A stretch of 64,000 nt of DNA from Mycolicibacterium sp. YH-1 (GTDB lineage Bacteria; Actinomycetota; Actinomycetes; Mycobacteriales; Mycobacteriaceae), in NCBI RefSeq assembly GCF_022557175.1, contig NZ_CP092915.1, forward strand, positions 4,278,001-4,342,000. Reading direction: 5' to 3'. A program made the position numbers and the translations under genes. The notes under the pieces were generated by a model. That model was not told the DNA's origin, did no database searches, and saw only the letters and a list, made by a program, of their open reading frames with translations. This document shows positions 21,094 through 26,149 of this stretch, in pieces. The first letter of the stretch is position 1; every line of letters begins with the position of its first letter.

Positions 21094-21555
21094 CTAGCGT
21101 TCCAAGTCCGCCGCGACGACTTCCTTCACCTTGGCCACGTTGAAGCGGCCCTCATAGATCGGCCCCTGACCCGTCGTTGGCCCCTGGTACTGCAGGAACA
21201 AGATCCGGCACCCGTTCTCAGTCTTCATCTCGTACTCGAAGTGCGGATCCTGCATGTACACCAGATCGCCGGCACGAAGGACTGTCTCGCCGTATTCGCA
21301 CTCCCCCTCGATGACGTACCACATCTGGGCGAAATCGTGCTTGTGCAGCGGGAATCCCGACCCCGGAAGGTAGTTGATGATGCCGGCGTTGGGCTGAGTC
21401 GGATCCTCATCCGAGGGGTGGAACACCATCTGGGTGGTGTTCTTGAACCGGCCCATCTTCGGTTCTGTGTCGTCGGGGCGACGGATGATCGGCGCATTGT
21501 GGGTCTTCATGGCCTCTGTCGCGGTCAGCAGCTTCTCGGCGGTGGACACTTTCAC
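21094..21555 (-). CDS. Cupin-domain protein of the enamidase cluster
   Basis: A 153-residue single cupin barrel. Motif 1 is GFPLHKHDFAQMWYVIEGEC (His71, His73, Glu83) and motif 2 includes GDLVYMQDPHFEYEM (His105), a normal metal-binding set. No enzymatic class can be named; such proteins act as dioxygenases, isomerases or ligand sensors. The start is GTG 21555 with an AGAGGG Shine-Dalgarno 6 bp upstream. It is divergent from the IclR-enamidase operon across a regulatory region full of GTTC/GAAC half-sites, so co-regulation is likely. Confidence 0.85.
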   Translation of the reverse strand: MKVSTAEKLLTATEAMKTHNAPIIRRPDDTEPKMGRFKNTTQMVFHPSDEDPTQPNAGIINYLPGSGFPLHKHDFAQMWYVIEGECEYGETVLRAGDLVYMQDPHFEYEMKTENGCRILFLQYQGPTTGQGPIYEGRFNVAKVKEVVAADLER

Positions 21556-21640
21556 TGATCCCTCTCTTGTGCGGGTGCTCAGAACGCCATGGGGAAATCG
21601 ACATCAACTCTCATTCGAGATTCGACACCCACTACCCATC

Positions 21641-21664
21641 GTTCAGCTATACTGAACACTGTTC
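21641..21664. promoter_or_regulatory. Operator-like GTTCAG-CTGAAC-GTTC array with -10 TATACT
   Basis: GTTCAG (21641-21646) and CTGAAC (21652-21657) form an inverted repeat with a 5-bp centre. The right arm is also part of GAAC-ACT-GTTC (21654-21664). TATACT (21648-21653) inside the repeat is a good -10 for the plus strand. A related TGTTC-N9-GAACA (21803-21821) spans the proposed iclR start. Together they look like sites for the local IclR regulator acting on itself and possibly on the divergent cupin gene. Confidence 0.55.
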
Positions 21665-21811
21665 TAATTACAGTCAGAGCATGGCACGCACTTCCAGCGT
21701 CGGTCAACCAACATTCGTTGGCGGGGCGAGAAATTGCCCCAAATACATGTGGTTGACCTCACACGGTTGGTCTGCCATGCTTCGTTCCGTCAAACAGAAT
21801 GGTGTTCAGCA

Positions 21812-22597
21812 GTGCCGAACAATAACCCACCCCGGTCTCGATCAGTGGAGCGTGCCTTGTCCATCCTTTGCGAACTCGCCAAAGACGACTCCCCCGTGGG
21901 CATCAGCGACTTGTCGCGACGCACCGGCTGCTCGAAGAGCACGGTGTACTTGAGCCTGCAGACGATGCGCGCAATGAACTTCGTGGTGCAGGATCCCGGT
22001 ACCGAGCGCTACGGACTCGGGCTGGCTGCCGCTCAGTTGGGCGGGGCCGCCCGCGATAACTCCCGCCTGGTCACCGCGCTCTCGGACCCCATGAGCGAAC
22101 TCGCGGCACGGTCATCAGAAGCCGTGTCGCTCGGCGTCCGAACCGCGGACGAAGTTCTGTTCGTCAAGCGTTTCGAAACGTCACACGCGCTGGGTACCAG
22201 CATTCGCGAAGGCACCCGAATGCCGTTGCACACCTCGGCAGCTGGGAAAGCCATCCTGATGGGCCACACCGACGAGGAACTCATGACGATGTTCCCCGAC
22301 GAGTCCCTGCCTGTGGAGGGCAGCAATGTCGTTGGCAGCCGCACGGAACTGCTCAGCCAACTCGCCACCGCGCGTGAGGTTGGCTACGCAACCAGCGAGG
22401 ACGAATGGCGTGCCGGCGTTTCAGCGGCCGCGGTGCCGATCGTGATCGGCGGCGAGATCGTCGGATCGGTCTCGATCGCAGGTCCAACGTCACGCTTTCG
22501 AGCGTCGCTTTGGGTCAACGACCTACTGGCGCTGGCGCGCCCACTCCACAATCCCGGACCCGACAACGCACCGAAAACCAAGAAGGAGCAGGAATGA
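21812..22597 (+). CDS. IclR-family regulator of the enamidase cluster
   Basis: A 261-residue IclR protein. An N-terminal winged HTH (residues about 10-65, with ISDLSRRTGCSKSTVYLSLQ) precedes the ligand-binding GAF-like domain (MPLHTSAAGKAILMGH and GYATSEDEWRAGVSAAAVPI are typical blocks). The GTG at 21812 puts ten residues before the HTH; earlier TTG/GTG codons give non-family sequence. Its stop overlaps the enamidase ATG (ATGA), so regulator and enzyme are coupled. A likely small-molecule sensor for the cluster's substrate. The inverted repeat over its own start suggests autoregulation. Confidence 0.88.
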   Translation: MPNNNPPRSRSVERALSILCELAKDDSPVGISDLSRRTGCSKSTVYLSLQTMRAMNFVVQDPGTERYGLGLAAAQLGGAARDNSRLVTALSDPMSELAARSSEAVSLGVRTADEVLFVKRFETSHALGTSIREGTRMPLHTSAAGKAILMGHTDEELMTMFPDESLPVEGSNVVGSRTELLSQLATAREVGYATSEDEWRAGVSAAAVPIVIGGEIVGSVSIAGPTSRFRASLWVNDLLALARPLHNPGPDNAPKTKKEQE

Positions 22598-23769
22598 GCC
22601 ACTCGCTGGCCGTGACCAATATCGGAACGCTGATGTCCGGGGACATCGAGGCACCCATTGCGGCGGCCGACACCGTTCTCATCGTGGACGGCCTGATCAC
22701 TGGAGTCGGCGCGCGATCCGACTTCTCCGCCGACAGGTGGCTGGATGCGGCGGGAGCCACTGTGCTTCCAGGACTCATTGACAACCACATCCACCCAGTC
22801 GTCGGCGACTACACCCCGCGGCAGTCACAGGCCGACTTCCTCAGCGGGTTCGTGCACGGCGGCGTCACCTCGGCGGTCTCTGCGGGTGAGGTGCACACCC
22901 CCGGCCGGCCGACCGACCCGGCGGGCACCTGCGCTCTGGCGGTGCTCGCCCACAAGGCCTTCGCCAAGTTCCGGCCCGGTGGAATCCGCGTCTACGGGGG
23001 CGCCGTCCTTCTCGAGAACGGCCTGACCCGTGAGCATTTCGTGGAGATGGCCGCCGAGGGCGTGCACCTCGTCGGCGAGATTGGGATCTCGGGTGTACAG
23101 GACCCCGAGCAGGCCGCGGAGATGACCAGATGGGCGCAGGCGGCCGGGATGACCGTGACGGTCCACGTGGGCGGGAAATCCGTTCCGACCAGCCGCACCA
23201 TCGACGGCGCGTTCTGCGCGCAGGTCATGCCTGACGTCGCCGCACACGTCAACGGCGGCCCCACAGCACCGGCCCTGGACGATGTGCGGACCATCCTCGA
23301 TCAGACGAGCGCCGCAGTCGAGCTGGTATACAACGGTAATCAGCTTGCCGCCGTTGAGGTCTCACGGATGCTGGTCGACAGTGGCGAACTCGATCGGCTT
23401 GTGCTCGGGACGGACTCGCCAGCGGGCGCCGGCATCGCCGCGGGCGGAATGCTGCGGCTGATGGCCACGATGTGCTCAATGGCCGATGTGCCGCCGGCAA
23501 TCGCCGTCGCGACCGCGACCGGCAACACCGCCCGGGTCCGACGGATACCCGGCGGCCGGCTTCGTGTCGGCGAGCGGGCCGACCTCGTCGTCGCCGACGC
23601 CCCCGACGGCAGCAGGGCCGACGATATGTCCGCTGCTTTGACGCTTGGCGACACTCCGGCAGTGGCCGCCGTGATCGCCGGCGGCGAGATCGTGGTGCGG
23701 CGCAGCCGAAACACCGCTCCACCGCGGCGGGTGCCGCAGTTTCCGCGCGAGGACTTGGTCGCCCACTGA
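22594..23769 (+). CDS. Enamidase-like amidohydrolase
   Basis: A 391-residue amidohydrolase that aligns by eye with Eubacterium barkeri enamidase, which opens 6-oxo-1,4,5,6-tetrahydronicotinate to 2-formylglutarate and ammonia. Shared blocks are DNHIHPVVGDYTPRQ (ligands His65, His67), VGEIG with the bridging-type Glu162, TVHVGG (His191), AHVNGGPTA (His218), LGTDSPAG (Asp274) and the C-terminal SRNTAPPRR. The length equals that of enamidase (386). A strong RBS (AAGGAGCAGGA) precedes ATG 22594. It follows iclR and precedes an MHS transporter and an F420-type enzyme. The exact substrate is inferred; another cyclic enamide is possible. Confidence 0.85.
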   Translation: MSHSLAVTNIGTLMSGDIEAPIAAADTVLIVDGLITGVGARSDFSADRWLDAAGATVLPGLIDNHIHPVVGDYTPRQSQADFLSGFVHGGVTSAVSAGEVHTPGRPTDPAGTCALAVLAHKAFAKFRPGGIRVYGGAVLLENGLTREHFVEMAAEGVHLVGEIGISGVQDPEQAAEMTRWAQAAGMTVTVHVGGKSVPTSRTIDGAFCAQVMPDVAAHVNGGPTAPALDDVRTILDQTSAAVELVYNGNQLAAVEVSRMLVDSGELDRLVLGTDSPAGAGIAAGGMLRLMATMCSMADVPPAIAVATATGNTARVRRIPGGRLRVGERADLVVADAPDGSRADDMSAALTLGDTPAVAAVIAGGEIVVRRSRNTAPPRRVPQFPREDLVAH

Positions 23770-23816
23770 CCGTCCAGAACGAATAAGCGCAGTATCCAAC
23801 AAGAAAGGAGCTCCGT

Positions 23817-25142
23817 ATGACAGTGCGGAACGACGGTTCGCCAGCCCTCAGAGTGCTCATGTCGAGCTTGGTCGGCACGACTCTGGAGTGGTATGAGTTC
23901 TTCGTCTACGGTATCGCCGCCGCGTTGGTGTTCAACAAGGTCTTCTTCCCCGAATTCGACCCGCTCATCGGCACTCTGCTGTCGTTGTCAACATTCGCTG
24001 TCGCCTTCATCAGCCGCCCCATCGGTGGCGTCATCTGTGGGCATTTCGGTGACCGCATCGGTCGCAAGCGAATACTCATACTGACCCTCACGGTCATGGG
24101 CGCCACCACGTTCGCGATCGGTCTCCTGCCGAGCTTCGCCACGATCGGGGTTGCCGCGCCAATCCTGCTGGTGGCACTGAGATTCATCCAGGGACTGTCG
24201 CTCGGCGGCGAGTACAGCGGTGCAGTTCTGATGAGCGTCGAGCACGCCGCTCCGGGAAAGCGCGGGCTTTACGGCGCGGTCATCAACACCGGGGCGTCCT
24301 GGGGCATGTTGCTGGGCAACGGCATCTTCCTGCTGCTGTCCTCGCTGAGTGACTCCTCGTTCGCGCAGTGGGGCTGGCGAATCCCGTTCCTGACGAGCGC
24401 CGTTCTTGTCTTCGTCGGGATGTACATGCGCCTGCATATCGAGGAGAGCCCGGCGTTCGCGCAGCTACAGGAGGAGAACGAGGTACGCAGACAACCGATC
24501 CTGGAAGTCCTGCGTGACCATCGGCGCACAGTCCTGGCGATGGCGTTCTCCTACATGATCAACGGCACGTTCTTCTACACCGCGACCGTCTTCTCACTGA
24601 CGTACGGGCAGAACCACCTTGGCCTGCACCGGTCACACGTGCTGTGGATGGTCATGGCGGTCACCGTCGTCGCGGTCTCGGGCACACTCTATGTCGGCTG
24701 GCTGTCGGACCGGATCAATCGAAAGCGCCTGTACCTGTTCGGCATCGCCGGTTTGACTGTCATGCCGGTTGCGTGGTTCGCGCTGTTCACCACGGGATCG
24801 ACGCCGTGGATGCTGCTCGGTTTCGTCCTCGTCTACATCCCCTACTGCTTCAACTACGGCGCCATGCCCACCTTCTTCGCGTACTGCTTCCCAGCCGATG
24901 TCCGCTACAGCGGAATGGGGCTCGGCTACACACTCGGAACCGTCCTCGGCAGTGCGACCGCACCGATCGTGTGCACCTTTCTGCTGGATCGCACCGACGG
25001 CTGGCCAGCCATCGCGGGCTACATGGCCGCGGTGGGGGTGGTCTCATTCATCGCCACGCTGTTCCTCAACGAGCAGCAGACCACCTCTGTCGGCGGTCCA
25101 GGCGCGCCCAGTGACAAGCCGTCGACGCTGCTCGCCCGATGA
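23817..25142 (+). CDS. MHS-family MFS transporter
   Basis: A 441-residue, 12-helix major facilitator of the metabolite:H+ symporter group. The MHS signature LVGTTLEWYEFFVYG opens the first helix, followed by RPIGGVICGHFGDRIGRKR between helices 2 and 3 and GLSLGGEYSGAVL in helix 4. MHS members import organic acids and zwitterions such as citrate, shikimate or proline betaine. AAAGGAG is 8 bp before ATG 23817. Its stop overlaps the next ATG. Position after the enamidase implies import of the pathway substrate, perhaps a heterocyclic carboxylate. Confidence 0.92.
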   Translation: MTVRNDGSPALRVLMSSLVGTTLEWYEFFVYGIAAALVFNKVFFPEFDPLIGTLLSLSTFAVAFISRPIGGVICGHFGDRIGRKRILILTLTVMGATTFAIGLLPSFATIGVAAPILLVALRFIQGLSLGGEYSGAVLMSVEHAAPGKRGLYGAVINTGASWGMLLGNGIFLLLSSLSDSSFAQWGWRIPFLTSAVLVFVGMYMRLHIEESPAFAQLQEENEVRRQPILEVLRDHRRTVLAMAFSYMINGTFFYTATVFSLTYGQNHLGLHRSHVLWMVMAVTVVAVSGTLYVGWLSDRINRKRLYLFGIAGLTVMPVAWFALFTTGSTPWMLLGFVLVYIPYCFNYGAMPTFFAYCFPADVRYSGMGLGYTLGTVLGSATAPIVCTFLLDRTDGWPAIAGYMAAVGVVSFIATLFLNEQQTTSVGGPGAPSDKPSTLLAR

Positions 25143-26149
25143 GAGGCACCACACCCCGTGTCGGCCTGGCACTGTATCCGACCCAACCCATCAACGACAT
25201 GGTCCAAGCCGCGAAAGTCGCTGAACATCACAGCTTCTCGACACTATGGATCGGCGACTCACAGAACATCTGGCGCGAGTCATTCACCGCAATGGGCGCA
25301 ATTGCACACAGCACCAACAGGATCGGTATCGCGACAGGGGTGAGCAATGTGGTTACCCGCCACCTGGCGACGGTGGCGGGCGGGTTCGCCTCACTACAAG
25401 AAATGGCACCGGGTCGCGTGATCGCCGGGTTGGGGACCGGTGATTCATCACTGGCCACCATCGGCAGCGCGCCGATGCGCACCAACGATCTCGAACGCGC
25501 CGTCGGCATGCTGCGATCGCTGACGTCGGGGGAAGGGGTCACGCTTGACACTGGACCGGCGCAGGTCCGCATCACCTACGCCTCGGCCCGTACCGCGGTC
25601 CCGGTTCACCTGGCGGCATCGGGACCCAAGATGTTGGATCTCGCCGGCCGCGCCGCGGACGGCGTGGTACTGCTTGCCGGCGCAGACCCCGATGCGATCC
25701 GACGAGCCTTGGCACGGGTGACCAGCGGAGAGGTCACCGCAGGCAGGCAAGTGGGGTCTGTGTATCGCGTCCTGTGGCTACCCATCGCGGTGGAGGACGA
25801 CTCGGCACAGGCCCGACGACTGGTCCGGCCGCATGTCGCCAGGACCGCACTACGGCCACACCCCGTGGCGCTGCCTACCGAGCTGGTCCAGGAGGTATCC
25901 GAACTACGGCGCCGTTACGACTACTACCAGCACATGTCCAGCAGCGCGGGTCACGCCGAATATGTCTCGGCCGAGCTGACCGCGCGATTTGCCGTCGCCG
26001 GTGATCCCGGTGAAGTGCTGGCGCAGATGCGTGAACTGTGCAGGTTGCCTATCGACGAGATCGCGCTCGTTCCGTTCGCGGCCGATGAGAGTTCACGGAT
26101 CACCACCGCAGTGAGATGTCTGGAACTGGTCGAGGCCATCGCCGCCTAG
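25139..26149 (+). CDS. F420-dependent-type luciferase-fold oxidoreductase
   Basis: A 336-residue LLM-class protein. The TIM-barrel strands include GLGTGDSS (98-104) and HLAASGPKMLDLAG (157-170); the ASGPKML block is typical of F420-dependent (Mer-like) rather than FMN-dependent members. No second reductase subunit gene lies nearby, which also suggests that it uses free reduced F420. It overlaps the MFS gene by ATGA and ends the cluster. A hydride-transfer step before or after enamide hydrolysis is my inference. The alternative is an FMN monooxygenase that needs a remote reductase. Confidence 0.85.
   Translation: MRGTTPRVGLALYPTQPINDMVQAAKVAEHHSFSTLWIGDSQNIWRESFTAMGAIAHSTNRIGIATGVSNVVTRHLATVAGGFASLQEMAPGRVIAGLGTGDSSLATIGSAPMRTNDLERAVGMLRSLTSGEGVTLDTGPAQVRITYASARTAVPVHLAASGPKMLDLAGRAADGVVLLAGADPDAIRRALARVTSGEVTAGRQVGSVYRVLWLPIAVEDDSAQARRLVRPHVARTALRPHPVALPTELVQEVSELRRRYDYYQHMSSSAGHAEYVSAELTARFAVAGDPGEVLAQMRELCRLPIDEIALVPFAADESSRITTAVRCLELVEAIAA

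Follow-up and report, generated by a model that had tools for sequence, protein, structure and literature searches.

We analysed a window of 64,000 nucleotides (G000:C1:4278001-4342000) within the 7.27-Mb, single-contig genome of Mycolicibacterium sp. YH-1 (G000), which contains a cluster of genes for a cupin, an IclR-family regulator, an enamidase, a transporter and a luciferase-like monooxygenase-class (LLM) oxidoreductase. Our favoured reading is that an F420-type LLM and the enamidase together break down an N-heterocycle that is already oxidised and bears a carboxyl group, with 6-hydroxynicotinate or a related pyridone acid as the likeliest substrate. We hold this reading tentatively, as one that falls somewhat short of an even chance. 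In the proposed route, the transporter would import 6-hydroxynicotinate (6-oxo-1,6-dihydronicotinate) or the related pyridone acid, and the LLM would reduce the ring by conjugate addition: a single hydride, donated by F420H2, would attack the position beta to the lactam carbonyl and yield a cyclic enamide, for example 1,4,5,6-tetrahydro-6-oxonicotinate (THON). The enamidase would hydrolyse the cyclic enamide to an open-chain aldehyde acid of the 2-formylglutarate type and ammonia, and the cupin would act on some substrate or product of the route. IclR would control transcription in both directions by binding two GTTCA...GAAC palindromes, the first of which faces the cupin gene and the second of which lies on the iclR start codon.

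All five genes proposed in an earlier, sequence-only reading of this DNA are present in the window. The enamidase gene (22594-23769, + strand; 391 amino acids, Amidohydro_1) and the LLM gene (25139-26149, + strand; 336 amino acids, Bac_luciferase) are separated by a gene for a major facilitator superfamily transporter of the metabolite:H+ symporter (MHS) type (23817-25142, + strand; 441 amino acids). Upstream lie iclR (21812-22597, + strand; 261 amino acids from a likely GTG start at 21812, in an open frame from 21734) and a divergent cupin gene (21094-21555, - strand; 153 amino acids, Cupin_7). All five were assigned with Pfam and NCBIfam. As described earlier, ATGA overlaps join iclR to the enamidase gene and the transporter gene to the LLM gene, and a 47-bp gap precedes the transporter gene. 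The transporter matches TIGR00883 with 400.9 bits, below the cut-off of 443.45, and this family match supports the view that it carries small metabolites. The cluster has a lower GC content (0.638) than the window as a whole (0.672).

An enamidase of the Eubacterium barkeri type

Its sequence marks the amidohydrolase as an enamidase of the E. barkeri type, and we predict that it converts THON hydrolytically into 2-formylglutarate and ammonia. Among solved proteins, the E. barkeri enamidase (2VUN) matches the window protein along its entire length (E = 2.8e-106). A hydantoinase follows (E = 4e-6), the other three non-enamidases are no better, and the 25 NCBIfam amidohydrolase models listed of 42 all fall far under their cut-offs. 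Hydantoinase, dihydroorotase and imidazolonepropionase were rejected as identities for this protein because they score far lower than 2VUN.

We placed the protein in a tree of 110 enamidase rows, built by a quick method with duplicate loci removed and with one enamidase (that of the second operon described below, in genome G087) excluded. The enamidase loci came from an alignment-based contig search that gave 219, and we retained the 80 best; a single-sequence query gave none. The window enamidase joins the metagenome proteins P0002, P0004 and P0005 (98), then Rhodococcus and Prescottella proteins (99) and, at the next node (100), proteins of Nocardioides, P0012, P0013, P0017 and a Nitriliruptoraceae protein. 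This clade is sister (SH-aLRT 92) to 15 mostly actinobacterial rows, six of which adjoin a gene for 6-hydroxynicotinate reductase (Hnr), and 2VUN itself belongs to a clade of 18 rows, mainly from Bacillota, 12 of which also adjoin Hnr. The Hnr label was hand-listed and covers 45 of the 46 Hnr-bearing loci, the short locus L047 having been missed.

Residues were then compared, again without the G087 enamidase. Across 46 Hnr-type sequences, 2VUN included, 98 positions are near-invariant; the window enamidase retains 86 of them and differs at 12. Among those retained are H65, H67, E141, E162, H191, H218, D274, R76 and R105, of which we take the His, Asp and Glu residues to be the metal site of the enamidase. 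Homology to 2VUN, tree placement and retained residues all agree with the enamidase assignment made in the sequence-only reading, which had proposed a tree to set enamidases apart from hydantoinases and imidazolonepropionases; in ours, the protein is placed with enamidases that have Hnr as a neighbour, and those two families score far lower.

Other members of the family occur in different surroundings. Siminovitchia terrae (L031) has a Bacillota enamidase that is 49% identical to that of the window, and neither Hnr nor a close LLM was found in its genome. Enamidase-like genes lie beside Rieske, ferredoxin, FAD reductase, LigB dioxygenase or dihydrodipicolinate synthase (DHDPS)-like genes in L104 (G007) and L019 (a plasmid of Rhodococcus sp. 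USK13), and beside molybdenum hydroxylase subunits in L112 and L113; from these varied neighbours, the enamidase-like family serves other routes as well. In these four loci and in L021, a Lys stands at the enamidase's conserved Glu 164.

An LLM oxidoreductase resembling F420-dependent enzymes

The LLM looks closer to the F420-dependent than to the flavin mononucleotide (FMN)-dependent members of its class, and we predict that it binds F420 and transfers hydride. The best NCBIfam models for it are TIGR03842 and that for methylenetetrahydromethanopterin reductase (Mer), each under its curated cut-off. A profile built from 37 relatives scored 169-219 bits against Mer, 91-116 bits against other named F420 dehydrogenases and 34-46 bits against named FMN luciferases and alkanesulfonate monooxygenases. 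Intermediate scores were obtained for three "putative F420-dependent oxidoreductases" (65-67 bits) and for two luciferase-like proteins of unassigned cofactor, 9hav (86) and 7bip (69). Of the solved proteins, Mer matches the LLM best, across most of the sequence, and reached 111 bits with a single-sequence query. Mer and the F420 dehydrogenases thus outscore the FMN proteins, which bears out, by sequence, the F420 type that had been proposed for this enzyme. In the close LLM family, Mer's TDHYNN is replaced by GDSQNIWRE, a motif common to most close relatives, and we infer that tetrahydromethanopterin has no part in the reaction here.

The marker cofD (TIGR01819), which we used as the single indicator of F420 synthesis, is above its cut-off in G000 and in the other 10 LLM genomes searched; among 14 control genomes there are six matches, three of them above the cut-off. 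In a tree of LLM proteins, all 20 enamidase-linked LLMs fall in one 29-row branch (97/86), together with nine rows of unread context; four of the 20 labels (P0123, P0126, P0128 and P0158) rest on longest contigs of equal size, as set out below. LLM matches on plasmids are distant, mostly ~28-35% identical with one short match at 38% among the 20 rows listed. On plasmid 3 of Variovorax sp. PBL-E5 (L020), the F420 biosynthesis genes cofC, cofD, cofE, cofG, cofH and npdG have as neighbours a Mer-like LLM gene and amidohydrolase, C-N hydrolase, nitroreductase and IclR genes; this betaproteobacterial plasmid is perhaps a portable F420 catabolic package.

Linkage of LLM and enamidase genes in mycobacteria

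The same genome carries a second operon (L142, G000:C1:4238000-4257500), ~50-60 kb from the window cluster, in which an LLM gene (4249575-4250546; product 42% identical to the window LLM) and an enamidase-like gene (4239740-4240888; product 40% identical to the window enamidase) occur together. Between them, all on one strand, lie genes for an NMT1-type binding protein, an ATPase recognised by motif and similarity, permeases, a three-subunit molybdenum hydroxylase and a FUSC-like protein, and a GntR gene lies upstream. The NMT1-type protein, ATPase and permeases together are a predicted ATP-binding cassette (ABC) importer. The operon is found in the same order in 13 other mycobacterial genomes (in G042 it is split over two contigs), and we found no description of it in the literature searched. 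In G087, the enamidase-like gene of this operon (L153, 3421-4639, - strand) runs over two overlapping frames, and the copies in relatives are intact. In G084 (L156, 15067-16074) and G056 (L014, 425-1906), the enamidase-like gene of this operon is immediately followed by an additional LLM gene that is more distantly related.

We surveyed 148 relatives, including G000 itself, for homologues of the enamidase (E <= 1e-40) and of the LLM (E <= 1e-50). An enamidase homologue is present in 12 genomes and an LLM in 10, and all 10 LLM genomes are among the 12 (Fisher p = 6.5e-14, a value that ignores kinship); G007 and G104 have an enamidase homologue without an LLM. At E <= 1e-60, the LLM occurs in 5 of 401 family genomes, namely G000 and four others, and all four others have the full second operon. 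In addition, the enamidase and LLM protein searches returned longest contigs of equal size (21146, 33558, 8512 and 12771 bases), which suggests that both genes lie on the same metagenome contigs; the "LLM" label given to P0002, P0004, P0005 and P0017 in the enamidase tree rests on these equal sizes.

Mutual exclusion of LLM and Hnr

An Hnr gene is present in the fetched stretch at 46 of the 80 enamidase loci, and at 28 of the 42 whose stretch exceeds 20,000 bases. The identity of the Hnr query rests on annotation: it is so named in 5 of the 10 plasmid rows listed (26 records), and the other 5 are unannotated. A whole-genome search of G000 found no Hnr at E <= 1e-10, and on this result an Hnr elsewhere in the genome was rejected as the reductase of the route.

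We compared the two reductases in 35 hand-chosen genomes or records, some of them incomplete metagenome-assembled genomes (MAGs). Hnr is present in 12, a close LLM in 11 and neither of them in 12. None of the 11 close-LLM genomes yielded Hnr in a whole-genome search, which took in 11 of the 15 LLM genomes, with G396, G415, G512 and G516 outside it, and none of the 12 Hnr genomes yielded a close LLM (best match 7.1e-43). The 12 with neither include G309 and two Rhodococcus-group plasmid records, and some of them have LLMs at E 1e-27 to 1e-31. Within the enamidase clade of the window, a Nitriliruptoraceae MAG (L023) has iclR, the enamidase gene and a similar palindrome, and its Hnr is in two pieces on other contigs.

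A conserved, probable operator pair

Two palindromes lie in and near the region between the divergent cupin and iclR genes. The first, GTTCAGCTATACTGAAC (21641-21657; 6-bp arms GTTCAG/CTGAAC), lies between the genes, and the second, GTTCAGCAGTGCCGAAC (21804-21820), covers the GTG at 21812, which we consider the likelier iclR start because relatives align from about there and because the operator covers this codon. Both are conserved at 5 of 5 loci, where the cupin-iclR region holds two palindromes of the form GTTCARCW......GAAC, 152-164 bp apart. Three of these 10 copies deviate at one or two places from the tighter palindrome GTTCARCWNTRYYGAAC. The looser palindrome GTTCARCWNNRNNGAAC matches solely at the two sites in G309, G884 and the two plasmid records; in G000 it has four matches, two at the operators and two inside predicted coding frames, and reversed-pattern controls gave no match. 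When both operators were compared with the window on both strands at <=2 mismatches, four matches were found, against a shuffle mean of 0.27 and a largest shuffle value of 3.

These palindromes are likely an IclR operator pair of one regulon, and because they are conserved between divergent genes, the cupin gene probably belongs to the same regulon. The IclR control suggested in the sequence-only reading thus gains a likely operator pair that is almost unique in each genome or record. A probable iclR promoter, TTGACC and CATGCT with a 17-nt spacer (21753-21781, + strand), was read by eye; the region of its first hexamer is conserved in the five-locus alignment, and a generic sigma-70 scan called no promoter.

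Conservation of the cluster

A divergent cupin gene, iclR and the enamidase gene occur together at five loci: the window, Rhodococcus qingshengii plasmid RQCS_2, Prescottella equi plasmid p1-WH99, G309 and Nocardioides soli. This recurrence in other actinobacterial loci indicates that the arrangement did not arise by chance. A close enamidase (E <= 1e-100) is rare: 401 family genomes yielded two and 394 class genomes three, with G000 in both counts. The Rhodococcus and Prescottella group retains cupin, iclR, enamidase and transporter genes, and the N. soli locus has cupin, iclR, enamidase and LLM genes with an ABC importer instead of the MHS transporter. We accordingly rejected a fixed five-gene unit: the LLM is missing from the Rhodococcus and Prescottella loci, and Nocardioides has the ABC importer. 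Identity among the loci is 82-83% for the cupin, 65-75% for the enamidase and 57-70% for IclR, and the LLM is 44% identical to that of Nocardioides. In a protein search, relatives of the cupin carry generic names only.

Weighing the alternatives

A number of observations weigh against a route that joins the F420-type LLM to the enamidase. Three of the five loci with cupin, iclR and enamidase genes (Rhodococcus and Prescottella) have no adjoining LLM gene, and no LLM was found elsewhere at E <= 1e-25 in genome G309 or in the two plasmid records, a search that did not extend to the chromosomes of the plasmid hosts; Hnr was likewise not found in the G309 genome or these records. The LLM is less conserved than the cupin, as if the cupin were the fixed part of the system, and within the window no homologues of molybdenum hydroxylase subunits or of Hnr were found. 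On the LLM tree, the "enamidase-linked" label takes four changes, and the linkage is therefore not one clean clade. The exclusion between Hnr and LLM partly follows phylogeny. Finally, the second-operon amidohydrolase retains 69 of the 98 near-invariant positions, with two Glu replaced by Val and Phe and two Arg by Ala and Leu, and sits on a long branch of the enamidase tree. From these losses and the long branch, it may not be an enamidase and may act on another ring, which weakens the analogy between the two operons. The earlier proposal of the LLM as the enamidase's reductive partner therefore stands in part: the second operon and the mutual exclusion with Hnr favour it, and the three loci without an LLM do not. 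Likewise, of the co-occurrence for which a survey had been proposed, the recurrence of cupin, iclR and enamidase genes and the pairing of LLM with an enamidase homologue in 10 of 10 genomes held, and the constant presence of the LLM did not.

The same observations bear on other explanations of the cluster. The enamidase might open an imported lactam or cyclic enamide directly, with the LLM acting afterwards on the aldehyde, either reducing it with F420H2 or oxidising it; in the reductive version, the LLM would replace the step of 2-(hydroxymethyl)glutarate dehydrogenase in E. barkeri. The Rhodococcus and Prescottella loci, which have neither a linked LLM nor Hnr, speak for such an order, as does the occurrence of sugar-phosphate and hydroxymycolate dehydrogenases and a ketoreductase among LLM-class F420 enzymes (PMC8498797, Tables 2 and 3). 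However, the closest solved relatives of the LLM are Mer reductases and not the dehydrogenase group, and in the second operon the LLM gene is grouped with genes for a molybdenum hydroxylase and an enamidase-like protein, an arrangement that other clusters show for Hnr. We regard a role at the aldehyde as unlikely. We consider it quite unlikely that the substrate is a carboxylated cyclic enamide or pyridone other than 6-hydroxynicotinate, with F420 reduction, enamidase opening and cupin processing otherwise alike. Such a substrate would fit a window in which no molybdenum hydroxylase was found, a tightly conserved cupin that is not seen in any fetched Hnr-bearing stretch, and the 12 of 98 Hnr-type positions at which the window enamidase differs, but the enamidase retains the candidate metal-site residues and two arginines, and Hnr is found beside some sister-clade members and in the genome of clade member L023.

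Very unlikely, in our judgement, is that the LLM is an FMNH2- and oxygen-dependent monooxygenase, or has an unrelated role and neighbours the enamidase gene by chance. In its favour, both cofactor types of the LLM class share one fold, some F420 reductases also bind FMN (PMC6279831), and three of five loci lack the LLM. Against this, profile and family scores favour F420 enzymes, and the pairing of LLM and enamidase is seen both in two divergent cluster types and in all 10 of the 148 relatives that have the LLM.

Relation to known systems

The route that we favour, F420H2 reduction followed by enamidase opening, resembles the nicotinate route through THON of Eubacterium barkeri, Azorhizobium and Bradyrhizobiaceae, which uses nicotinate dehydrogenase, Hnr and enamidase. 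The enamidase family and candidate active-site residues are the same, an importer and a regulator are part of the cluster, and the second mycobacterial operon includes a molybdenum hydroxylase. The differences are that no Hnr was found in the genome and an F420-type LLM stands in its place, that control is by IclR or GntR, that a cupin and an MHS transporter are present, and that the window cluster is without a hydroxylase. Because no Hnr was found in G000, we describe the cluster as working like the THON pathway and do not file it as one. An aerobic enamidase route is not new: the reductive nicotinate route was already known in an aerobe (Azorhizobium; PMC3511419, and PMC9304392, which terms the route anaerobic).

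Two groups of F420 enzymes offer precedents for the proposed LLM step. The F420H2-dependent picrate reductase of Rhodococcus, Nocardia and Nocardioides (LLHT family) has the LLM fold and passes hydride to an electron-poor ring for degradation (PMC8498797, Table 3). Its substrate is a carbocyclic nitroaromatic, and the LLM here is closest to Mer. To our knowledge, the picrate reductase system includes no enamidase. Fps/Adp6 (LLHT), TpnL and GupA (both FDOR-B) reduce partly unsaturated N-heterocycles with F420H2, like the proposed LLM step, their substrates having an endocyclic imine or exocyclic double bond or being a dehydropiperidine or dihydropyrazine (PMC8498797, Table 3). They differ in being biosynthetic (antibiotics), in acting on non-aromatic substrates without an enamidase and, for two of the three, in belonging to another fold family. 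A relative of the enamidase, KpiC of the 4-hydroxypyridine route in Arthrobacter IN13, is 28% identical and also serves N-heterocycle breakdown (PMC7356986). KpiC is, however, an oxidative enzyme, a ring-cleaving dioxygenase of the amidohydrolase family, and the protein in the window resembles enamidase far more closely.

Neither Table 3 of PMC8498797 nor the open-licence literature searched lists an F420H2 reductase that acts on a pyridine or pyridone or in N-heterocycle breakdown. F420 enzymes acting on unsaturated N-rings are thus known in biosynthesis, and we did not find the reduction of an N-heteroaromatic acid for catabolism described, which the present cluster would provide if our reading is true. 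An obligate hydride donor, as F420H2 is characterised in PMC8498797, would suit the reduction of a pyridone acid.

Implications

It is possible, if clearly short of an even chance, that actinobacteria replaced the iron-sulfur Hnr with an F420H2-dependent pyridone reductase of the luciferase fold, in two enamidase-type operons of one mycobacterium. One of these operons appears self-contained (cupin, IclR and MHS transporter), and the other appears to bring its own molybdenum hydroxylase and ABC importer. Mycobacteria and their relatives have dozens of F420 enzymes, the functions of which are mostly poorly understood (PMC8498797). Here, gene context ties one F420 subfamily to a defined chemical step, so that its substrate is directly testable. 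If the proposed route is true, reductive N-heterocycle breakdown would join the known uses of F420, and the presence of an enamidase route without the iron-sulfur reductase in some aerobic actinobacteria would be explained. It would also provide a lead for the degradation of pyridine pollutants.

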